Source: Pseudomonadota bacterium
Lineage (GTDB): Bacteria; Desulfobacterota; Desulfobulbia; Desulfobulbales; Desulfocapsaceae
Direction of reading: 5' to 3'
Assembly: GCA_018817385.1 (NCBI GenBank)
Contig: JAHIUA010000038.1
Location: 1 to 61,502 of the forward strand
Length of the DNA: 61,502 bases
Shown: positions 21,904 to 34,218 of the stretch, piece by piece
Position numbering within the stretch: position 1 is the stretch's first letter
Layout: each line of letters opens with the position of its first letter
The notes under the pieces: model-generated
Database searches by the model: none
What the model was told of the DNA's origin: nothing
The model's input: the letters and a program-made list of their open reading frames with translations, nothing else
Program-made: the position numbers and the translations under genes

Positions 21904-22012
21904 AGTATCTTAGAAATTCTTTTCGTGTTTTTTTTGAAAAAGAATTTCTAAGATACTTATGACCCCATAAGGGGTACTGTACTGAGTGCCGCCTTACTAT
22001 TCATCACCGGTG
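21904..22012 (-). repeat. Structured intergenic repeat, copy A
   Basis: The reverse strand reads ACCGGTGATGAA, a CGGCACTCAGTACAGTACCCC segment and then a 19-bp perfect hairpin (GTATCTTAGAAATTCTTTT and its complement). It matches copies at 26144-26248 and 60994-61103. This copy is inverted relative to the flanking genes and starts 65 bases after speA. Confidence 0.8.
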
Positions 22013-22027
22013 TTACGTTATGTACCG

Positions 22028-22047
22028 GGCGTGGCTGAAGCCGCGCC
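22028..22047. repeat. REP-like palindrome
   Basis: GGCGTGGCTGAAGCCGCGCC folds as a hairpin with a GA loop and shares the GGCTGAAGCC core with the REP-like cluster near 32.6 kb. Confidence 0.5.
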
Positions 22048-22076
22048 TATAAATGAGCGAATCGTTTATGGTAGAG

Positions 22077-22092
22077 TTGGCCCCTGTATTGC
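22077..22092 (+). promoter_or_regulatory. Candidate sigma-54 promoter for the carboxyspermidine genes
   Basis: TTGGCCCCTGTATTGC keeps GG and GC with exactly ten bases between them and a TTGC at -12. It deviates from consensus at CAC (CCC here). It lies 80 bases upstream of the dehydrogenase start. Confidence 0.45.
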
Positions 22093-22171
22093 GTTTTTCG
22101 TATGGGCCGGAAAGCTAGTTATCCAGGCCTTCAAAACTCCAGGTTACCTGGGTTAAAAAGAGGAAGTTTTA

Positions 22172-23350
22172 ATGTCAAGAGTACTCATTATCGGGGCTGG
22201 CGGGGTTGGCTCGGTGGTTGTCCACAAATGTTGTCAGGTGCCAGAGGTGTTTTCAGAGATTATGCTGGCCTCCCGGACCAGGGAAAAATGCGATGCCATT
22301 GCAGCTCAATTGCCCATGCCTATCAAAACGGCTCAAGTGGATGCCGACCAGGTGGATGAACTGGTCGCTTTGATGAACGACTTTAAACCAGAGCTCTGTA
22401 TCAATGTCGCTCTGCCCTATCAGGACCTGACCATCATGGATGCCTGCCTGGAGTGTGGTGTCCATTATCTTGACACCGCAAACTATGAGCCTCGTGATGA
22501 GGCCAAGTTTGAATATCACTGGCAATGGGCCTATCAGGAGCGCTTTAAAAAGGCAGGTCTGATGGCTTTGCTCGGCTCTGGATTTGATCCCGGGGTGACC
22601 AATGTCTTTACCGCCTGGGCCCTGAAGGCCGAGTTTGATGAGATTCGGGAACTGGATATCATCGACTGCAATGCCGGTGACCACGGCCAGCCCTTTGCTA
22701 CCAATTTCAATCCCGAGATCAATATTCGCGAGGTGACTGCTCCTGCACGTCATTGGGATAATGGCCAGTGGGTGGAGAGCCAGGCCCTTCAGACCGCACA
22801 GGAGTTTGATTTTCCCGAGGGGATCGGTCCAAAGAAAATATATTTGATGTATCATGAGGAACTGGAGTCGCTGACCAGGCATATCCCAGGCATCAAAAAA
22901 GCACGATTTTGGATGACCTTCTCTGACAATTATCTCAAACATCTTGAGGTCCTGCAGAATATCGGCATGACCAGTATTGAGCCAATTGAATATAATGGCC
23001 AGGAGATTATTCCCCTCCAGTTTCTCAAGGCTGTTCTTCCCGATCCCGGTTCCCTGGGGCCACTGACCAAGGGGCGTACCTGTATAGGCTGTCTGATCAA
23101 AGGGCTCAAAGATGGTCAGGAAAAGCAATATTACATTTATAATATCTGTGACCATGAGCAGTGTTACAAAGAAGTGGGGGCCCAGGCTGTCTCGTACACC
23201 ACCGGAGTCCCGGCCATGATCGGTGCTTTGCTCATGCTTACCGGATCCTGGAAGGGTGCAGGGGTCTTTAATATGGAAGAACTTGATCCAACCCCCTTTA
23301 TGGAGAAGCTGAATCTTCACGGACTGCCATGGAAAGATCGTATCTTATAG
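22172..23350 (+). CDS. Carboxyspermidine/carboxynorspermidine dehydrogenase (synthase)
   Basis: Saccharopine-dehydrogenase-like NAD(P)H enzyme that reductively condenses putrescine (or diaminopropane) with aspartate beta-semialdehyde to form carboxyspermidine or carboxynorspermidine. It has 392 residues: Rossmann GAGGVGSVVVHKC at 8-20, INVALPYQDLTIMDACLECGVHYLDTANYEP, GFDPGVTNVFTAWAL and DCNAGDHGQPFATNFNPEINIREV, all characteristic of this branch. AGAGGAAG precedes the ATG. The next gene, nspC, overlaps its end by 22 bases and performs the following step, which strengthens the call. Confidence 0.92.
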   Translation: MSRVLIIGAGGVGSVVVHKCCQVPEVFSEIMLASRTREKCDAIAAQLPMPIKTAQVDADQVDELVALMNDFKPELCINVALPYQDLTIMDACLECGVHYLDTANYEPRDEAKFEYHWQWAYQERFKKAGLMALLGSGFDPGVTNVFTAWALKAEFDEIRELDIIDCNAGDHGQPFATNFNPEINIREVTAPARHWDNGQWVESQALQTAQEFDFPEGIGPKKIYLMYHEELESLTRHIPGIKKARFWMTFSDNYLKHLEVLQNIGMTSIEPIEYNGQEIIPLQFLKAVLPDPGSLGPLTKGRTCIGCLIKGLKDGQEKQYYIYNICDHEQCYKEVGAQAVSYTTGVPAMIGALLMLTGSWKGAGVFNMEELDPTPFMEKLNLHGLPWKDRIL

Positions 23351-24486
23351 ATTTTGATAAGCGGCTGGTGCCAAGCCCTTGCTTTGTGGTCGACGAAGGG
23401 GCTATTGAGCGGAATCTGCAGATCCTGGCTACGGTCCAGGATCGTACCGGCTGCCGGATCTTGTTGGCCCTGAAAGGCTTTGCCATGCCCCGGGTCTTCC
23501 CCTTGATTCGCCAGTATCTGGCAGGGGTCTGTGCCAGTTCTCCAGATGAGGCCAGGTTGGGACGGGAGGAGTTTCAGGGGGAGGTGCACAGCCATGCCCC
23601 GGCATTCAGTAAGGCTGACCTGGAGGTCCATTTACGCTGTTGCGACCATCTGGTCTTTAACAGTTTTCAGCAGTGGCAGCGTTTTCAGCCTCAGCTTAAG
23701 GCCTGTACCAAGCCGCCCTCGTGCGGACTGCGGGTCAATCCCTGTCATTCGGAAACCAAGGTCGCCCTCTATGATCCCTGCAGCCCCGGTTCCCGGCTCG
23801 GTATTCCCAAGGATAAGTTTGCAGGTCAGTCCCTGCAGGGCATCAGCGGTCTCCATCTCCATACTCTCTGTGAAAAAGGGGCCGACGCTCTGGTACGAAC
23901 AGCAAAGGTCTTTGAGGAGCAATTTCAAGAAATCCTGCCCCAGATGCGTTGGCTCAACTTTGGTGGCGGTCATCTGATCACAGCCCCCGGATATGATCTG
24001 GATCTCCTCTGTGAGCTGATCAACCATTTCCGCACTACCTACGATCTGACTATCTATCTGGAGCCAGGTGAGGCCATTGCCATCAATACCGGGGCCCTGG
24101 TGACCACCGTACTTGATGTAACCGAGAATGGAGGTCTTATTGCCATCCTCGACACCTCAGTGGCTTGTCACATGCCCGATGTCCTGGAGATGCCCTACCG
24201 ACCAGAGATCCGTAATGCTGCCATACCGGGCAAGCTCCCTTATACTTACCGCCTTGGCGGCGTTTCCTGCCTGGCAGGAGATGTGTTAGGGACTTACTCT
24301 TTTGCGCAGCCCCTGCAGCCCGGAGATCGGCTTCTTATCGAAGATATGAGTCATTACACCATGGTCAAAACCAACACCTTTAACGGTGTCCGGCTGCCGT
24401 CCATCGCCCTCTCCAGAGAAGAGGATAATGGCGTTGAAATTGTACGTCAATTCGGCTATGAGGATTATCGTTGCCGTCTCGGTTGA
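23329..24486 (+). CDS. nspC: Carboxynorspermidine/carboxyspermidine decarboxylase
   Basis: PLP enzyme of the alanine-racemase fold that decarboxylates carboxyspermidine (or the nor form) to the final polyamine. It has 385 residues, with the PLP lysine in LALKGFA near residue 48, a LHTLCEKGADAL region, NFGGGH (phosphate-binding) and LEPGEAIAINTGAL. ATG 23329 lies inside the dehydrogenase 3' end. With speA, speB and the dehydrogenase it completes the S-adenosylmethionine-independent route to spermidine. Substrate preference (nor or not) cannot be read from sequence. Confidence 0.92.
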   Translation: MERSYLIDFDKRLVPSPCFVVDEGAIERNLQILATVQDRTGCRILLALKGFAMPRVFPLIRQYLAGVCASSPDEARLGREEFQGEVHSHAPAFSKADLEVHLRCCDHLVFNSFQQWQRFQPQLKACTKPPSCGLRVNPCHSETKVALYDPCSPGSRLGIPKDKFAGQSLQGISGLHLHTLCEKGADALVRTAKVFEEQFQEILPQMRWLNFGGGHLITAPGYDLDLLCELINHFRTTYDLTIYLEPGEAIAINTGALVTTVLDVTENGGLIAILDTSVACHMPDVLEMPYRPEIRNAAIPGKLPYTYRLGGVSCLAGDVLGTYSFAQPLQPGDRLLIEDMSHYTMVKTNTFNGVRLPSIALSREEDNGVEIVRQFGYEDYRCRLG

Positions 24487-24688
24487 TTTCAATTGCTGTT
24501 TCTGAAGAGGTTTAATTCCCCTGAAGCACCTAGTGTCGAGTTGTTGCCCATAGATTGGTCTCGTAGCGTTCAGAAACCGGCTTGCAACAGTATTGGAGGA
24601 TGCACAGTCCGTGCTGCGTTTTAAGGTACAGGATTGGCAGTGGTCGTTTGCTAACTTCTAAACTGGTTTCTGTTGCGGTGAAGAAGAA

Positions 24689-24730
24689 AATATTTTCAAA
24701 AATTCCGTAAAAATGGGTAATTATACCTAT
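24689..24730. promoter_or_regulatory. Conserved palindromic site, copy 1, upstream of the riboswitch
   Basis: AATATTTTCA, 17 bases, then TGGGTAATTATACCTA with the dyad GGTAATTATACC. The same two blocks recur with identical spacing at 34172-34218. It lies about 80 bases before the GEMM aptamer and so may be the promoter or operator region of the omptin transcript. Confidence 0.5.
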
Positions 24731-24789
24731 AGAAAAAAGAGTCAACTTGTGTTTATGTGAATTTTATATTTGTCTGTAAGGACGTGATC

Positions 24790-24884
24790 TGTAAGTGTTG
24801 AAATAAGAGATAAAGCCAAACCTGCTGGAAGGCAGAGACGGAAAGCCACGGGGCTATATAACATAGTTAGCCGGGTTACCTTGT
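24790..24884 (+). promoter_or_regulatory. GEMM-I cyclic-dinucleotide riboswitch aptamer
   Basis: The core follows the c-di-GMP-I (GEMM-I) consensus: AAAGCCAAACC, a stem capped by a GGAA tetraloop (CTGCTGGAAGGCAG), GAGACGGAAAGCCACGGG (tetraloop receptor plus P2 strand), a variable P3 stem, and AGCCGGGTTACC closing the junction. By eye, the base equivalent to ligand-contacting G20 of the Vibrio Vc2 aptamer is A. In Geobacter this change is associated with recognition of 3',3'-cGAMP. The 3' strand is shared with a terminator, and the regulated gene is the omptin at 25138. Confidence 0.85.
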
Positions 24885-24907
24885 AAATGAGGTGGCCCGG
24901 CTTTTTG
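24869..24907 (+). terminator. Riboswitch-controlled intrinsic terminator
   Basis: AGCCGGG (24869-24875) pairs with CCCGGCT (24896-24902), an inner ACCTT/GAGGT stem extends it, and TTTTT follows. The 5' arm is also the last strand of the aptamer. Ligand binding should therefore prevent the terminator from forming, giving an ON switch. Confidence 0.8.
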
Positions 24908-25137
24908 CATTTTAGAGGGTAAAGAAATTGGGACTTTCTACTTGCTAAGACGGTCGTTGAAGGTGACCTTGGCTGCGAATTTATCAGGAATAAGCTGAGT
25001 TGTCCCCTTTTACCATTGTCGGCACCTAACGTGATTACTTGTCATTTTTTTCAGCCTGTTAGAAGAGTTAGAGGAAACGATGTGTTACTTATGAAGGCGG
25101 AACAGACTCATTTTATTCAACGTAAGGAGCATGTAAA

Positions 25138-26142
25138 ATGAAACAAGCAGAAAAAAGTAAAGTGTTGCTCGTTGGATTAGCGCTTGGATTTCTCAGTTCA
25201 GGTGCAGTGCTTGCTGCCGATGAAGTGGCGAATGAACCGACTGCAGAGAATGAAGTCTCTGAGAGTTCTGACAAACCGGTTCAGTTTGATATTGCCATTG
25301 GCACTGAATTAATGACAGGTGACACAACGTACTCAATAGGTGGTGCAATAACTTTTGCTGATGGTAGTTCCGAGAATATGTACTTCCCTCTCAGTGAACT
25401 TGAATGGCCGTTGGATATCTCGTTGGCCAGAGTTGATGCCGGATTACGTATCGGTTCTGCATGGCGTATTAACGGTATCTTGAAAAAGAATATCTCTGAC
25501 CCAAGTGACCAGATGATTGATAAGGATTGGTTAACTTCCTCTAATCCAGGTCAGCTTGATGTGTACTCTGAGTCAAATATTTCCGATTTTGATGCCTTGA
25601 TCTGGGATATTGATGTTGAATGGGCATTTTTACAGCGTCAATCCTGGAGTCTCTATGCAGGGCTTGGCTATCAGTATCAGAAGTTTGAATATGATGCTCA
25701 GCTTATCCATCAATATTCTCCTTCTGGATATCCTGGCTTTGAAACCTATGGAGATGGTAGTGTTGGTATCACTTATGAAATGACCTACAAAATGCCTTAT
25801 TTTCTCATCGGAACAGATCTTCAGATTACGCCTGATTTTACTCTTTCAGGAAGTTTTGCCTACTCCCCCTGGGTAGATGCTGAAGATGAAGATCATCATC
25901 TGGCACGAGTACCAGTCAAGGTCTCCCAAGGGGATATGGATGGTGATGCCTATATGATAGCTGTTTCGGGAACCTACAATTTTGTCTCATCCTGGTTTCT
26001 GGAAGGCGGTTTGCATTATACCAGGATTGATGTTGATGGAAAACAGACACAATCTGCCTATGGTGTTCCCTATGCAACAATTGATGTGGAATCCGAAAGT
26101 ACCCAGACTTCAGGCTATCTGAAAGTGGGGTATAGGTTCTAA
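25138..26142 (+). CDS. Omptin-family outer-membrane protease
   Basis: A 334-residue protein with a signal peptide cut after about residue 26 (SSGAVLA-A), an acidic linker and a ten-strand-type beta-barrel ending in GYRF. It aligns by eye with OmpT/Pla at both active-site halves. DQMIDKDWLTSSNPG carries Asp128 and Asp130, equivalent to OmpT Asp83 and Asp85. SPWVDAEDEDHH carries Asp252 and His254, equivalent to Asp210 and His212. All four catalytic residues are kept. Known omptins cleave surface and host proteins, often at basic sites, and need lipopolysaccharide. AAGGAG lies nine bases before the ATG. Expression should depend on the upstream riboswitch. Omptins are best known from Gammaproteobacteria. 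Confidence 0.85.
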   Translation: MKQAEKSKVLLVGLALGFLSSGAVLAADEVANEPTAENEVSESSDKPVQFDIAIGTELMTGDTTYSIGGAITFADGSSENMYFPLSELEWPLDISLARVDAGLRIGSAWRINGILKKNISDPSDQMIDKDWLTSSNPGQLDVYSESNISDFDALIWDIDVEWAFLQRQSWSLYAGLGYQYQKFEYDAQLIHQYSPSGYPGFETYGDGSVGITYEMTYKMPYFLIGTDLQITPDFTLSGSFAYSPWVDAEDEDHHLARVPVKVSQGDMDGDAYMIAVSGTYNFVSSWFLEGGLHYTRIDVDGKQTQSAYGVPYATIDVESESTQTSGYLKVGYRF

Positions 26143-26143
26143 T

Positions 26144-26248
26144 ACCGGTGATGAACGGTAAGCCGGCACTCAGTACAGTACCCCCTTGAGGGGTGAAAGT
26201 ACCTTAGAAATTTTTTTCAAAAAAACATAAAAGAATTTCTAAGGTACT
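26144..26248 (+). repeat. Structured intergenic repeat, copy B
   Basis: It starts directly after the omptin stop with ACCGGTGATGAA and a CCCC-TTGA-GGGG mini-hairpin. It ends with a perfect 14-bp stem (GTACCTTAGAAATT and complement). Relative to copy A, one stem pair has changed from T-A to C-G on both sides, a compensatory change. Confidence 0.8.
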
Positions 26249-26355
26249 CAAGAGAATAATGGTAGCGCTTGCCCATACCTTTTTGCTCAAGCACTGCCAT
26301 ATTCATACGATTAGTTGTTGTAGCTCCTTCTTCTATTGATGGATAACTTTTTCTT

Positions 26356-27111
26356 ATGAAGTACTACTCGATAGTAGTATTTATGGCTTTGGTGGGTTGT
26401 TTGAGTGCGTATAGTCAAGCTCAGTCACAGGGATTCACTTGGGATTTTGTCACAGTAACTCGTGATACCCATGGCAAAGAAACGAGCGAGACTATAAGCT
26501 ACTCTGTCAATTCTGAAATCACCAAAATAGAAGATGGACAGGAGATCATCTCTATAGATTACAGCCAATATGTCCTTTACAGATACAACAAATCGGAACG
26601 ATCATGCCTGAAATTCCCTCTTTATTCCAGTTATGCAACTGAACCCGCTGATCCAAAAGAAAACTCAAGGGAAAAAAGTATTGCCTTGGTCGGCAGCCTG
26701 AAACGAATCACCACAACTGAACGGAAAGAGATTGGCCCGTATAAGTGCTCGCTACAGCACATACTGTTTGGTGCTCAGTTCGCAGTGTCGCAAATGGTCG
26801 CTTCTCCTGTGATCCAGAAGTTTAATCAGCAATTCACAGAATCAATGGTGAGTTACTGGGTATCAAATGAGGTGCTTGCCTTGAGTCCTCTCTTGACTAT
26901 CTCTCAAAAACGTCGTCCTGTTTATCAAAATAACCCCCTGTTACGGCAAGTCGATATTGTCGGTCTCCTCGAAATATTGGAAGGCTTTCCTGTGCAAAGC
27001 AGGTACAGATTCCGTGAAGTTGAGTCGGTGATGACGTTGCTCAATAAGCCCTCAGCGACTGATGACAACAATCGCTTTGTATTGGCGGATGAGTGTATTG
27101 CCAAACCCTGA
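26356..27111 (+). CDS. Secreted protein of unknown function
   Basis: 251 residues with a clear signal peptide (MKYYSIVVFMALVGCLSAYSQAQ, cut near residue 23) and a mostly beta N-terminal half (FTWDFVTVTRDTHGKETSETISYSVNSEITKIEDGQEIISIDYSQYVLYRYN). This pattern resembles periplasmic DUF4412-like or LolA-like folds, but I cannot place it. Two cysteines (SERSCLKF and YKCSLQH) could form a disulfide. The ATG has no strong ribosome site. It is AT-richer than the polyamine genes and stands between a repeat copy and an RCC1 relic. Confidence 0.65.
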   Translation: MKYYSIVVFMALVGCLSAYSQAQSQGFTWDFVTVTRDTHGKETSETISYSVNSEITKIEDGQEIISIDYSQYVLYRYNKSERSCLKFPLYSSYATEPADPKENSREKSIALVGSLKRITTTERKEIGPYKCSLQHILFGAQFAVSQMVASPVIQKFNQQFTESMVSYWVSNEVLALSPLLTISQKRRPVYQNNPLLRQVDIVGLLEILEGFPVQSRYRFREVESVMTLLNKPSATDDNNRFVLADECIAKP

Positions 27112-27193
27112 AAGCCAGGACGACAATCGTATAATTTTTTTCAAGCAAGGTGACGACTACGATAAAGCATGTCAAAAAAATTCTTTTTGTGTG

Positions 27194-27397
27194 ATGGCAA
27201 GAGCTTTCCTGCTGGCATGTTACCCCCTAGTCCAGTGTGGGCTGGTAATACATAAATGGGCTACAGGAGAAGGGCACATCGTCGCTCTTCAAAGCGATGG
27301 TAGCTTGTGGACCTGGGGCGTAATATCGGATCAGGCAGCTGTTGCATGTCTTTTAGTCTGTCAAACCTGTTTGAAGATTAGAACGGAAAGCTCTTGA
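27194..27397 (+). pseudogene. RCC1-repeat protein fragment
   Basis: ATG 27194 begins a hydrophobic leader (MARAFLLACYPLVQCGL) followed by ATGEGHIVALQSDGSLWTWG, the hallmark of an RCC1 propeller repeat (G.H..AL..DG.VW.WG). Directly after this the frame departs from the family. Inserting one base would give WGRNIGSG, the expected N..G motif, so a one-base deletion is likely. A full protein would hold several repeats; only one is left. It is most likely a decayed secreted beta-propeller gene. Confidence 0.5.
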
Positions 27398-27544
27398 GTG
27401 ACTGCATGTGATTACTGGGGGACGAATTGTACAATTCGGGCAATTAATTATCCTTATGCTGAATATACACTGGAGCAATGTCTTGCTGCTTATGCCAGTT
27501 GTTATACGACGGTAGTGGAGTCTTGTGAGGGGAAATGGAAATAG
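27398..27544 (+). pseudogene. Cys-rich C-terminal remnant after the RCC1 fragment
   Basis: From a GTG at 27398 the frame encodes 48 residues ending in KWK, with five cysteines spaced as in a small disulfide domain (CDYWGTNC, then EQCLAAYASCYTTVVESC). Composition looks coding, but there is no ribosome site. It may be the broken 3' part of the RCC1 gene or a separate peptide. I recognise no family. Confidence 0.3.
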
Positions 27545-27602
27545 TTTTTCTGGTATGACAAGTGTGGACAACAATAAAAAGGAGCCTGTTTGCAAGGCGA
27601 AG

Positions 27603-27618
27603 GGTCTCACCTGAGACC
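27603..27618. repeat. Short palindrome GGTCTCACCTGAGACC
   Basis: Seven-base perfect arms flank CC, followed by an A-run. It lies in the 340-base gap before the LysM/FecR gene, which otherwise shows nothing I can name. Confidence 0.35.
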
Positions 27619-27884
27619 AAAAAAAATCAGCTGATGGGTCTCCTGTAAGGTCACTCTTGCCTGTTCAGATTGATCCTTTGTCCTCTAAAAGGGGATGGCC
27701 TCAACCGACCTTTGTTGTAATGAGATTCTTTCTGGAAGAAGCAGAATGCACCATTTTTTGTCCCTTTTTCATAATGATCGGCGGGACAGCTAGTTATATC
27801 TATATGAAAAAACGTGTAGCTGTGATTAAATAAATGGCGACTCCTTATCTCCCCTTTCCTTGAATTCTCAACAGGGAAAAGAAA

Positions 27885-29588
27885 ATGAACGTATATGAAG
27901 GGACAATCCTGATGGTGAAGAGCAAGAAATCTCCCCGTGAAAATTACAATTGTTCCCTTAACCGGGTAGCCGCGGCCCTGGTATTGCTCATTCTGTGGAG
28001 CGGAGGAGTCAAGGCAGGTGAAGAGGATGAGTGGACTTACTCTATGGTTCGTGGAGATAATCTGTGGAATATCACCGCACGATATCTTGATGGAGGATTC
28101 CGCTACTGGAATGCATTGATACGTCTTAACAAGGTCAGCGATGCTGAACATATGCCGCCTGGGTCCAAGGTTCGTATTCCCCTGCGCTGGTTGAAAATCG
28201 AACCTGCCACGGTTCGGGTCCGTGATATTCATGGAAAAGTGGAGTATGTCGAAGCGCGACAGACGGAGGCCAGGGCGCTTACCGGCAGTACGCACCTCAA
28301 AGACGGTGATCAGGTCGTGGTTGGTGAGGGTGCTAACGTGGTTCTGGAGTTTGTCGATCAATCCAGGCTTTTTCTGGGAAGCGGCAGCCGGATGGGGCTG
28401 GGTTGGGTCAGGAAGTTTTCGCGCAGCGGCCTGGCCGATAATATGGTGGATCTTCAGGAGGGTCGGAGTGAAAGTAAGGTCAAGACCGAAAATACTCGGT
28501 TCCAAATCAAGACTCCCTCTGCAAACACCACGGTTCGCGGCACTGATTTTCGTGTGACCGTTGCTCAGGAAAATTCGGAGGTGTCACGGGTAGAGGTGTT
28601 GGGCGGTATTGTCCATACCAGCAGCAGCGGTGGAGCACGTGATGTCAGGGCCGGATTTGGCACCACCGTCGCCAAAGGTGAAGCACCTCGTTCTTTGGTG
28701 AAATTATTAGCAGCGCCTGAGATTGTTTCACCAGCCGATTATAGTCGAGATCTGCCGGTGGATATCAAATGGCAGAAAATTGCCGGTGCCGAACTGTATC
28801 GTATACAGATTCATAGAGCAGAAGGGGAGCAGACATTGTTGATAGATGCCGTCATTTCCGCTGCCCGTTTCAACACCAGTGCCTTGGAGGATGACGAATA
28901 TATTATCCGGGTGCGGGGAATTGATGCCAATGGACTGGAAGGAAAGGATGCTGAGCAGATGTTGGAGCTGGATGCCAGACCCCGGCCTCCATTGGCTATC
29001 ACTCCCAAGGATGATAGCACCGTACGCACGCTGCTGCCGGATTTTGAATGGTCAACACCAACCGGAGGCACGGGCTATCATTTCCAGTTGTCTGAATATC
29101 CTGATCTCAGCTCACCTGTAATCGATAGTACGGAATTCACCGCAACTCGATTTACCCCGGATCATCTCACGCCTGGACTCTATTATTGGCGTCTGGCCAC
29201 TTTTGCCGATAGCAAGAAAGGGCCTTTCAGTCCGATTTGGAGTTTTACCCTCCGGCCTGCTCCCAAGGCCCCCGACTTGTCGCAAATGTCCATTGAGGAA
29301 GACGAGATCAATATGACGTTGCACTGGCAGGCTGGTAGTCCGGGGCAGCAGTATAAGATCCAGCTGGCGGAGGATCCGGACTTTCAAAAAATAGTCGCAG
29401 AACAACAACTTCCACAAGCGGAACTGGTCATGGAGCGTCCTCTGAAACGGATCTATTTCCGGGTAAAAGTTATTGAAGGGGACGGTTTTGAGGGTGATTG
29501 GAGCCCAGCCCAGCAAATTGAGGTGCCGCCGAACCCCTGGTATTATGTTTTTATACCGATGATTCCTTTTCTTTTGCTTGCATTATAA
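27885..29588 (+). CDS. LysM-FecR domain protein, partner of a CHASE2 sensor
   Basis: 567 residues: an N-terminal membrane or signal segment (AAALVLLILWSGGVKA, about 29-44) and a LysM-like peptidoglycan-binding domain (YSMVRGDNLWNITARYLDGGFRYWNALIRLN, about 51-98). A FecR domain at about 110-235 (FQIKTPSANTTVRGTDFRV), three fibronectin-like beta modules and a hydrophobic tail follow. FecR/LysM proteins of this kind are usually encoded directly before CHASE2 sensors, as here, where the genes overlap by one base (TAATG). It probably presents a cell-wall or envelope signal to the CHASE2 domain. ATG 27885 and ATG 27912 both have acceptable ribosome sites. Confidence 0.85.
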   Translation: MNVYEGTILMVKSKKSPRENYNCSLNRVAAALVLLILWSGGVKAGEEDEWTYSMVRGDNLWNITARYLDGGFRYWNALIRLNKVSDAEHMPPGSKVRIPLRWLKIEPATVRVRDIHGKVEYVEARQTEARALTGSTHLKDGDQVVVGEGANVVLEFVDQSRLFLGSGSRMGLGWVRKFSRSGLADNMVDLQEGRSESKVKTENTRFQIKTPSANTTVRGTDFRVTVAQENSEVSRVEVLGGIVHTSSSGGARDVRAGFGTTVAKGEAPRSLVKLLAAPEIVSPADYSRDLPVDIKWQKIAGAELYRIQIHRAEGEQTLLIDAVISAARFNTSALEDDEYIIRVRGIDANGLEGKDAEQMLELDARPRPPLAITPKDDSTVRTLLPDFEWSTPTGGTGYHFQLSEYPDLSSPVIDSTEFTATRFTPDHLTPGLYYWRLATFADSKKGPFSPIWSFTLRPAPKAPDLSQMSIEEDEINMTLHWQAGSPGQQYKIQLAEDPDFQKIVAEQQLPQAELVMERPLKRIYFRVKVIEGDGFEGDWSPAQQIEVPPNPWYYVFIPMIPFLLLAL

Positions 29589-32410
29589 TGTCATCTTTTC
29601 GGAATCAGGCAGTTATGAGATACGGTTTGGCGGCCTTCTTGGTGTTGGTTGCCCTTATCTGTACCCATACAGGGTTATTCACCGGTTTCAGCCGGATATT
29701 CTATGACCAGTTTATTCGCTTTTACACGCAGCCGCCGGCGGAAGACATTGTCATTGTGGCCATTGACCAGCATAGCCTGGATCAACTCGGGCGCTGGCCC
29801 TGGCCACGCCGCCTGCATGCGGAATTGTTGCACAACATCGCAGCATGCAAACCAAAGGTGATTACCTATGATATCATCTTTGCCGAGCCGGACGCTGAGG
29901 GGGCCAGTGATGATGTTCTGGCTGCGAGTATTGCTGAAAACAGTCCAGTCGTTTTGCCGGTTCTGGTTGAAAAACCAAAGTTGGCTCCGTTGCGGGAAAC
30001 ATTACCCTTGGCGAAATTCTGTGCTGTGGCAGCAGGACTTGGCCATGTAGACACCGAATTAGACAGTGACGGTATTGCCAGATCGGCTTTTCTAAAAGCT
30101 GGTCTCGGTAAAGCAAGCTGGCCTACCCTTGCTCTGGCCACGTTGCTGGTATCCGGTAATGGGATAGCGGATGCGGCATTACCCGGTGAAAGAAATCCGC
30201 AACAAACTGGCATGGACAGCGGCTTCTGGGTCAGAGATTACCGTGTCCTTGTCCCTTTCTCCGGTCCTGCCGACCACTTCCAACAGGTCTCATTTACTGA
30301 TGTCCTTTCCGGCAATTTCCGCCCATCATCGTTTAAAGACAAATACGTATTGGTTGGGGCCACGGCAACCGGTCTCGGAGATACTGTTCCTACGCCTGTT
30401 TCCGCATTAGGTCGGCCTATACCGGGGGTTGAATTCAACGCCCATATCCTCGATGGTTTTTTAAGGGGACGATTGATAGAGCCTGCAGCCAACTCAACAG
30501 TATTCCTCATTAATATCTGTATAGCCCTTCTTTGCGCCTTGCCCTTCATCATCCCGGGAGTAAACGGATTGCTGTTGTGGGCTCTGGTTCTGGCAGCAGG
30601 AACTCTACTCACTTCCTGGTTCGGGCTCACCCTGCTCCACATCTGGTTTCCGCCGGGTACGGCTTTGTTCATCATCCTCCTTGGTTTTCTCGTGTATAAC
30701 GGGCAACATATTAAACGGTTGTTGAGCACTCTCTTTGAAGAGCGTTTTCAGACACAGGCAACACTCACTTCAATAAGTGATGCCGTGATCCGAATCGACG
30801 AAGCAGGTAAGGTGCGGCAGATAAATCATGCCGCTGAAACGCTTTGCGATGTTTCCAGTGAGAGGGCCATGGGCAAGCCGATTGAGGAAATATTGCACTT
30901 ACATACCCGTAAGGGAAAAGAACCCTATCCTTTACGACAGCTTGTGAAAGAGATGGTGTATCACCACCGGGAACCACTTATCCTGAGCAATAAAAAGAGT
31001 AAAGAAATGCTCGTTCAGGTCGCGACAACACCTATTCCTCCAGTCGAGGGTCAGCAGGGGGGGGCTATCATTGTCTTAACCGATATCAGTGAAGCGGAGC
31101 GATTGGCAGGTGTTGTTCAACACAGTGAAACCCACAATAGCTTGACCGGCCTTCCCAATCTGATTTTGATCAGCGAAAAGCTTCAGGAAGCGATTGATCG
31201 GGCCCAACTCTACCAACGACTGATTGTGGTGGTCGATATCGACATCGATCACTTTGCCAAGATTAATAAATCAATGGGTAATGTGACGGGAGATTTGTTG
31301 CTGAAGACTGTGGCAGAGCGCTTGCAGACTCTGCAGCTCCAGGGCACGATACGCGGACATGTGGGTGCAGATGAATTTGTCCTGATTATTGAGAATGTAC
31401 AAAGTGGCAAGGAAGTCATGGCGCTGGTGGATCATGTCCGGCAAGCGCTGGGCAGCACCGTATCCCTGTTTGAAAAAAAGGTGTGCCTTTCTTTCACCCT
31501 TGGGATCAGTGTGTATCCGGAAAATGGCCGGCAACCGAATATACTGTTACACCGTGCTAATGCTGCCATGCATCGCGGCAAGGAACAGGGGCAGGGCAAA
31601 ACGGTACAGTATACCGACAGCCTGCAAACTCGCGCCGAGCGACTGTTTCATGTTGAGCAGGTCATACAGGAGGCTGTTGAAACTGCTCATGTGGAGACCT
31701 TGTATCAACCCCTGGTGCAGGCAAGTAATCTCCAGATTATGGGTGTCGAAGCACTGATGCGGCTGCGAGATGATACAGGTGAGTATGTCAATCCTGTAGA
31801 GTTCATCGCATTGGCCGAAGAATCAGGAAAGATTGTCAACTTGGGCAATTACCAGTTGTATGATGCTTGCCGTGCCCTGGCTTCCTGGCAGGAAGAGGGG
31901 AGACAGGAATTACGGCTTTCTTATAATCTGTCACCGCGTCAACTCCAGGATCCTGACTTGGTGTACAACATACAACAGACGCTGGATGTATCCGGGTTTC
32001 CTCCTCATCTGCTCGAATTCGAGATTACCGAGAATCTGTTTCTGAAGAATAATGCAGAGATCAAAACAATAATCGATCAACTGCGCAAGCTGGGTCCAAA
32101 TTTCGCGATTGATGATTTCGGTACAGGCTATAGTTCAATGAGATACCTGACCCAGTTCCCTTTTCATCGTCTGAAAATCGATAGATCTCTGGTCTTGGAC
32201 CTGGCAAGCAAACCAGGGGCCCGTGCCATAACCTCTGCAATTATCAGTATGGCGCACAGTCTCGACATGCAGGTTGTTGCGGAAGGAGTGGAAATGCAAT
32301 CCCAGCTTGAGATCTTGTTATCCCAAGGCTGTGATGAAGTGCAGGGTTTTTTTATAGATCGTCCAATGAAAGCAGATCAATTAAAAAAACGATATCTTCA
32401 GCATCTCTGA
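29588..32410 (+). CDS. CHASE2-PAS-GGDEF-EAL cyclic-di-GMP signalling protein
   Basis: 940 residues: TM1, periplasmic CHASE2 (about 40-300), three TMs (about 300-370), PAS (about 385-490), GGDEF (about 515-670), EAL (about 690-935). The cyclase signature reads HVGADEF instead of GGDEF and lacks an upstream RxxD inhibitory site, so cyclase activity is doubtful. The EAL part looks complete: VEALMRL, NLSPRQL, FEITENLFL, IDDFGTGYSS, KIDRSLV and EGVEMQSQ are all present. It is most likely a c-di-GMP phosphodiesterase with a regulatory pseudo-cyclase domain, driven by an envelope signal through the LysM-FecR partner. Confidence 0.9.
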   Translation: MSSFRNQAVMRYGLAAFLVLVALICTHTGLFTGFSRIFYDQFIRFYTQPPAEDIVIVAIDQHSLDQLGRWPWPRRLHAELLHNIAACKPKVITYDIIFAEPDAEGASDDVLAASIAENSPVVLPVLVEKPKLAPLRETLPLAKFCAVAAGLGHVDTELDSDGIARSAFLKAGLGKASWPTLALATLLVSGNGIADAALPGERNPQQTGMDSGFWVRDYRVLVPFSGPADHFQQVSFTDVLSGNFRPSSFKDKYVLVGATATGLGDTVPTPVSALGRPIPGVEFNAHILDGFLRGRLIEPAANSTVFLINICIALLCALPFIIPGVNGLLLWALVLAAGTLLTSWFGLTLLHIWFPPGTALFIILLGFLVYNGQHIKRLLSTLFEERFQTQATLTSISDAVIRIDEAGKVRQINHAAETLCDVSSERAMGKPIEEILHLHTRKGKEPYPLRQLVKEMVYHHREPLILSNKKSKEMLVQVATTPIPPVEGQQGGAIIVLTDISEAERLAGVVQHSETHNSLTGLPNLILISEKLQEAIDRAQLYQRLIVVVDIDIDHFAKINKSMGNVTGDLLLKTVAERLQTLQLQGTIRGHVGADEFVLIIENVQSGKEVMALVDHVRQALGSTVSLFEKKVCLSFTLGISVYPENGRQPNILLHRANAAMHRGKEQGQGKTVQYTDSLQTRAERLFHVEQVIQEAVETAHVETLYQPLVQASNLQIMGVEALMRLRDDTGEYVNPVEFIALAEESGKIVNLGNYQLYDACRALASWQEEGRQELRLSYNLSPRQLQDPDLVYNIQQTLDVSGFPPHLLEFEITENLFLKNNAEIKTIIDQLRKLGPNFAIDDFGTGYSSMRYLTQFPFHRLKIDRSLVLDLASKPGARAITSAIISMAHSLDMQVVAEGVEMQSQLEILLSQGCDEVQGFFIDRPMKADQLKKRYLQHL

Positions 32411-34171: not shown

Positions 34172-34218
34172 AATATTTTCAGAAAGAGTGTTAAAATAGG
34201 TAATTATACCTATTTTAA
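34172..34218. promoter_or_regulatory. Conserved palindromic site, copy 2
   Basis: AATATTTTCA at 34172-34181 is followed, at the same spacing as in copy 1 (24689-24730), by a perfect 28-bp dyad at 34191-34218 (TTAAAATAGGTA, ATTA, TACCTATTTTAA). No gene follows closely on either strand. Confidence 0.5.

Follow-up and report, generated by a model that had tools for sequence, protein, structure and literature searches.

In a contig of 61,502 nucleotides (nt) from a bacterium of the family Desulfocapsaceae (GenBank JAHIUA010000038.1, assembly GCA_018817385.1; hereafter the window), a gene for an omptin-family protein is preceded by a GEMM-I riboswitch aptamer and an overlapping terminator (Table 1), an identification supported by the analyses below. 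We consider it probable that this leader acts as a transcriptional ON riboswitch for cyclic di-GMP (c-di-GMP), controlling an omptin-type outer-membrane protease. The arrangement had been noticed earlier in the DNA letters alone; our data indicate that the observation is real and more ordinary than proposed, the locus being a lineage-specific member of a large set of riboswitches, and omptins being common in its genus.

The aptamer matched the whole Rfam covariance model RF01051 (model positions 1–87), at 60.3 bits against a gathering threshold of 35. In line with the original reading, this is a GEMM-I aptamer. Its copy of the consensus is incomplete, the third stem being short: the window aptamer has 79 nt for 87 model positions, and the positions lacking a counterpart fall in that stem. 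Shortness here is shared within the genome (5.38 Mb in 105 contigs), which contains at least 21 RF01051 matches above the cut-off, all 21 copies measuring 74–79 nt. When these 21 aptamers were aligned, 95.2% of cells were paired, and both sides had changed in 47 cells compared with 16.3 in shuffled alignments. Compensatory changes occurred at 10 of 18 pairs (equalled by one of 500 shuffles), and the covariation score was 0.449, compared with 0.200 for shuffles and at most 0.137 when partners were slid, though the structure tested came from the same alignment, which favors it. Our own model (R1), whose training set includes the window, scored the aptamer at 78.7 bits. Folded on its own, the aptamer is unremarkable in stability (−18.6 kcal/mol, z −0.77; 43 of 200 shuffles as stable), so that the evidence for it comes from the covariance model and from covariation. 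In sequence and structure, specificity base (see below) and use of a transcription terminator as expression platform, the window element resembles other members of the RF01051 class, from which it differs in its shorter third stem.

The aptamer-closing strand, AGCCGGGTTACC, doubles as part of the 5' arm of the terminator, bearing out the earlier claim that this arm is the last aptamer strand. None of 200 shuffles folded as low as the terminator. A terminator scan found four terminator-like sites versus 2.0 (standard deviation 1.7) in shuffled sequence, a count that by itself proves little; we judge the terminator real from its fold energy, not from the number of sites. Since it is more stable than the aptamer (−25.6 versus −18.6 kcal/mol), the terminator should win when ligand is absent. 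Overlap between terminator and last aptamer strand was seen in 20 of the 21 own-genome GEMMs, the window included (in the folding used, L113 lacks it; the weakest cases are L115 and L116).

The specificity base points to c-di-GMP as the ligand. At Rfam position 11, which we take to be position 20 of the literature (mapped via Vc2 numbering), G is present in all 21 own-genome copies. The class that senses 3',3'-cyclic GMP-AMP (cGAMP; GEMM-Ib) has A at position 20, and an A20G change converts a Geobacter cGAMP riboswitch to c-di-GMP selectivity (excerpts of PMC6456294). Given this published switch and the G in every copy, the ligand in the window should be c-di-GMP, not cGAMP, which sharpens the earlier and broader proposal of a cyclic-dinucleotide riboswitch while leaving its GEMM-I assignment intact. 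A cGAMP sensor would find parallels in the Geobacter GEMM-Ib riboswitches, which resemble the GEMMs of this genome in number (17 GEMM-I in G. sulfurreducens), in their surface-related targets and in layout (excerpts of PMC6456294 and PMC9262584). Rfam, on the other hand, assigns the window aptamer to c-di-GMP-I. Together with a G at the place of the cGAMP-class A (on the position equivalence assumed above), this led us to reject cGAMP specificity, which we regard as very improbable.

The polarity of the switch is suggested by analogy. In Geobacter, the aptamer of the pilM riboswitch and its terminator exclude each other, and ligand binding blocks termination, giving an ON response (excerpts of PMC9262584); because the window has the same layout, an ON response is predicted, and the window riboswitch is apparently of the ON type. 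The pilM element is a GEMM-Ib riboswitch sensing cGAMP, from which the window differs in its G, and regulatory attributes are not necessarily transferable between species (excerpts of PMC6366702). We propose that at low c-di-GMP the last aptamer strand would pair downstream, forming the terminator and stopping transcription before the omptin gene, whereas at high c-di-GMP the ligand would keep that strand in the aptamer and RNA polymerase would read through. The protease would then be made and inserted into the outer membrane with its active site outward.

The protein encoded downstream exceeded the curated Pfam cut-off for PF01278 (71.2 versus 22.6 bits). Residues D128, D130, D252 and H254 align to D83, D85, D210 and H212 of OmpT, which we take to be its catalytic residues, and this DDDH set is kept in every alignment row that extends to these positions (71 rows, counting the window twice and including three fragments). 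The structure model (predicted local distance difference test, pLDDT, 88) is an outer-membrane barrel of OmpT type, matched by Foldseek and VIA to OmpT/Pla; judging from the alignment and fold match, the four residues probably cluster in space. An omptin gene with all four catalytic residues, as originally proposed, is therefore well founded. Fold and catalytic residues are common to the window protein and the OmpT/Pla omptins (1i78, 2x4m, 4dcb), from which it differs at ~20% identity as part of a divergent branch in this lineage, and no named omptin subfamily or equivalog of NCBIfam scored above its cut-off (best 54.5 versus 537 bits). An omptin relative without protease activity, acting as an adhesin or porin, would share the barrel; we consider this unlikely and continue to favor a predicted protease. 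OmpT/Pla omptins are under two-component control.

Table 1 Features of the omptin locus, with positions in the window.
Feature	Position	Strand	Basis
Palindromic promoter-proximal site GGGTAATTATACCTAT, possible operator (putative)	24715-24730	+	exact pattern GGGTAANTATACCTAT, 3 genome copies
c-di-GMP-I (GEMM-I) riboswitch aptamer	24805-24883	+	RF01051, 60.3 bits, E 2.5e-9; covariation in 21 own-genome copies
Intrinsic terminator, mutually exclusive with aptamer	24869-24907	+	15-pair stem 24869-24902, then T run TTTTGCATTT; −25.6 kcal/mol, z −5.5
Remaining 5' leader	24908-25137	+	AAGGAG ahead of ATG; read directly
Omptin-family outer-membrane protease (predicted activity)	25138-26142	+	PF01278; D128, D130, D252, H254; signal peptide ~1-26 by eye; C-terminal Phe
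P2, probably exported protein	26356-27111	+	no Pfam match at E 0.01; AF2 pLDDT 86

The genomic context is regulon-like. Of the 20 further GEMMs in this genome, 18 could be assigned downstream open reading frames (ORFs; 20 proteins), at distances of <100 to ~800 nt from the aptamer start, so that some assignments are loose; the target scan left out L110, with no ORF in its stretch, and L111, whose nearest assignable ORF lies 1.3 kb off. Pfam matches above cut-off were found at 11 of the 18 loci (FG-GAP, SBBP, Flg_new_2, Big/cadherin/PKD/NHL, DUF11, CarboxypepD_reg/fn3, DUF3108-like, GH16, MBOAT and Fer4 families), and a signal-peptide-like start was recognized by eye at 17, the exception being the MBOAT protein. 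The genes led by a GEMM in this genome thus mostly encode exported or surface proteins. Under the proposed mechanism, the surface protease would likely be co-induced with surface proteins of an attached lifestyle and act in their maturation, shedding or turnover. More tentatively, it is possible that through these parallel riboswitch copies c-di-GMP turns on a set of surface proteins together with the protease by which they are processed or released, the neighboring protein P2 (Table 1) being a partner or substrate; such a circuit would be a same-sign counterpart to the opposite-sign PPEP-1 circuit of Clostridioides difficile (below). In six of the GEMMs (L102, L104, L105, L106, L108 and L111), the second stem (TTTGAG..GATCAAA) is almost identical and the promoter stretch similar, suggesting that promoter-riboswitch cassettes have spread in this genome. 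Across the genus, GEMM numbers vary widely, with matches at E 0.001 in 13 of 20 genomes, at 1 to 21 each.

How much the switch contributes to omptin expression depends partly on where transcription starts. Aptamer and terminator could both be real while the gene is transcribed mainly from a promoter 3' of the terminator or by read-through, leaving the effect of the switch small. Such a scheme would fit the gap of 230 nt between terminator and ATG, the lack of a T-tailed terminator in a congener (below) and the situation in C. difficile, where only 11 of 16 c-di-GMP riboswitches are functional (excerpts of PMC6366702). Against it, the overlapping terminator recurs at 19 of the 20 further GEMMs in this genome, and a simple scan found no sigma-70-like site on the + strand of the leader, a weak argument given that it found none 5' of the aptamer either. 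We consider this alternative unlikely and prefer control through the riboswitch. The distance from the last aptamer base to the omptin ATG is 255 nt, and no ORF of at least 90 amino acids (aa) lies between them on the + strand. We considered, and dropped, a leader peptide encoded in the stretch from the terminator to the ATG: a short frame overlapping the start codon was visible by eye, with no counterpart seen in the congener.

Several observations weigh against the proposed riboswitch control of this gene. No sigma-70-like promoter was found on the + strand from 24480 to the ATG, and none 5' of the aptamer either; such promoters are present at seven other own-genome GEMMs and at the aptamer copy of the congener G412, whose promoter is of another type than the window's. 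In favor of the proposal, the locus of that congener (L041) has a GEMM-I aptamer 5' of a 74%-identical omptin orthologue, followed by P2, and when the window (22001-30000) was compared by blastn with 12 kb around it, only aptamer, omptin and P2 aligned. Its aptamer, however, scores only 38.7 bits and carries an extra base in the last strand, and the hairpin competing with it ends without a T run; from these features, the switch there may be decaying or work differently. GEMM leaders were rare, found by the Rfam and R1 scans at two of 112 omptin ORFs of this phylum (the window and G412). None was seen at L091 and L042, close relatives with 73% and 67% identity, or at the second omptin of this genome within the stretches scanned. 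Finally, 150 of 368 first-look GEMM candidates in the genome were scored, so copies may have been missed.

The 112 distinct omptin ORFs came from 120 stretches and were counted by a two-round profile search that included fragments; 102 had at least 300 nt before the first in-frame Met. R1 was run over 75 sources and then over 46 sources together with the window. One Rfam scan left out L130, L135, L139, L143 and L144 as places already scanned, which the second R1 scan included, and the omptin places outside the scans were seven from the phylum sample, whose genomes are among the 32 omptin-bearing ones below, and five from the order and genus sample (G415:C1:366122, G504:C133, G443:C212, G429 and G534). 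In the tree, the window grouped with L041, L091, L042 and the L043/L045/L046 branch, in no firm order within the group, which fits one riboswitch gain as well as two.

Omptins had been described as mainly Gammaproteobacterial, which would make one here unusual. We drew distribution counts from genomes of the phylum Desulfobacterota and of the order, family and genus of the window. PF01278 matches were present in 36 of 395 phylum genomes sampled, 79 of 257 order genomes (77 over the cut-off) and 11 of 20 genus genomes, and relatives of the window protein in 42 of 93 family genomes; omptins are therefore not exotic in this lineage. Scanning genome contigs with the window protein gave seven loci, labelled Desulfobulbaceae (2), Desulfocapsa, Desulfobacterales, Pseudomonadota, Proteobacteria and Gammaproteobacteria (1 each). 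GEMMs occurred in 12 of 32 omptin-bearing phylum genomes, with none of the 33 listed GEMM places near an omptin place; only in G015 did the two share a contig, at a distance of 2.3 Mb.

Control of surface proteolysis by c-di-GMP, even through a class I riboswitch, is not new. In C. difficile, the mRNA of zmpI (PPEP-1), a secreted protease that cuts surface proteins, carries a class I c-di-GMP riboswitch (excerpts of PMC6366702), as does the window transcript, with its predicted protease; in that system, however, c-di-GMP acts negatively (OFF), the host is Gram-positive and the enzyme a zinc metalloprotease, whereas the window switch is predicted to be ON, in a Gram-negative host and before an outer-membrane omptin. 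LapD/LapG likewise ties c-di-GMP to cleavage of a surface adhesin, but at the protein level, through a membrane receptor that inhibits a periplasmic protease, with no RNA switch (PMC3032545). What appears new, as far as the open-access literature searched shows, is that the target is an omptin and that the predicted response is ON; that search turned up no report of an omptin preceded by a riboswitch, nor any on omptins of this lineage. If our reading is correct, the window would contain the first omptin under riboswitch control, as far as the literature search shows, and a second, independent c-di-GMP riboswitch setting surface proteolysis, opposite in polarity to that of C. difficile. In sediment bacteria, it would also link the turnover of surface proteins to attached life, and it would open the substrates of this little-studied omptin branch to testing, the remaining riboswitch-led genes serving as a list of candidates.

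A palindromic site 5' of the aptamer (Table 1) may add another layer of control. All three exact genome copies of GGGTAANTATACCTAT stand 5' of a GEMM, and matches with up to four mismatches lie within 130 nt 5' of seven of the 21 GEMMs (2.1% of background windows); the best match at three further GEMMs has five mismatches (9% of background). The sites stand at a similar distance 5' of part of the GEMMs. At up to three mismatches there was no genome-wide excess (153 versus 202 for the reversed control). From the pattern itself, the palindrome is a possible operator of some further regulator, and omptin expression may accordingly need a second regulator besides the riboswitch. Copies of the palindrome are accompanied by a shared promoter stretch, and near copies also occur at non-GEMM places, including a one-mismatch copy at window positions 34198-34213.

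Directly downstream of the omptin gene, P2 shares 157 of 251 residues with its counterpart in G412, there too adjoining the omptin. The P2 family (~250 aa) was found in the window and at nine fetched omptin loci (L041, L014, L048, L049, L068, L070, L080, L083 and L085), all drawn from a set chosen for omptins; one of nine members matched DUF4412 (E 0.0083), and the family is otherwise without a Pfam assignment. An independent look found P2 in six of 297 phylum genomes, beside an omptin only in the window and in G088 (the locus L014), and on a different contig from the omptin in G295. Between the omptin and P2 genes, positions 26198-26248 form a 20-pair inverted repeat (one G-U pair; −21.9 kcal/mol, z −8.4) without a T tail, for which a terminator variant, an RNA-stability element and a small mobile-element remnant are candidates. 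A CHASE2-PAS-GGDEF-EAL protein is encoded 3.4 kb downstream (29588-32410); its GGDEF signature reads GADEF by eye, and it is probably a c-di-GMP phosphodiesterase near the riboswitch.

Two further GEMMs were noted near omptins in other genomes. At L167 (G496), a c-di-GMP-I-GGC variant (RF03167, 68.7 bits) at 1014-1091 on the minus strand lies 3' of the omptin and was not counted as an omptin leader; it leads the next gene, whose start is signal-peptide-like. In G412, the window aptamer also aligned by blastn to a second, degenerate GEMM (L087, 3894-3964 on the minus strand; R1 36.5 bits, no Rfam match at the gathering threshold), with a terminator seen by eye. This copy precedes a PilZ-domain gene directly 5' of the omptin, which places a c-di-GMP riboswitch before the gene for a likely c-di-GMP receptor.
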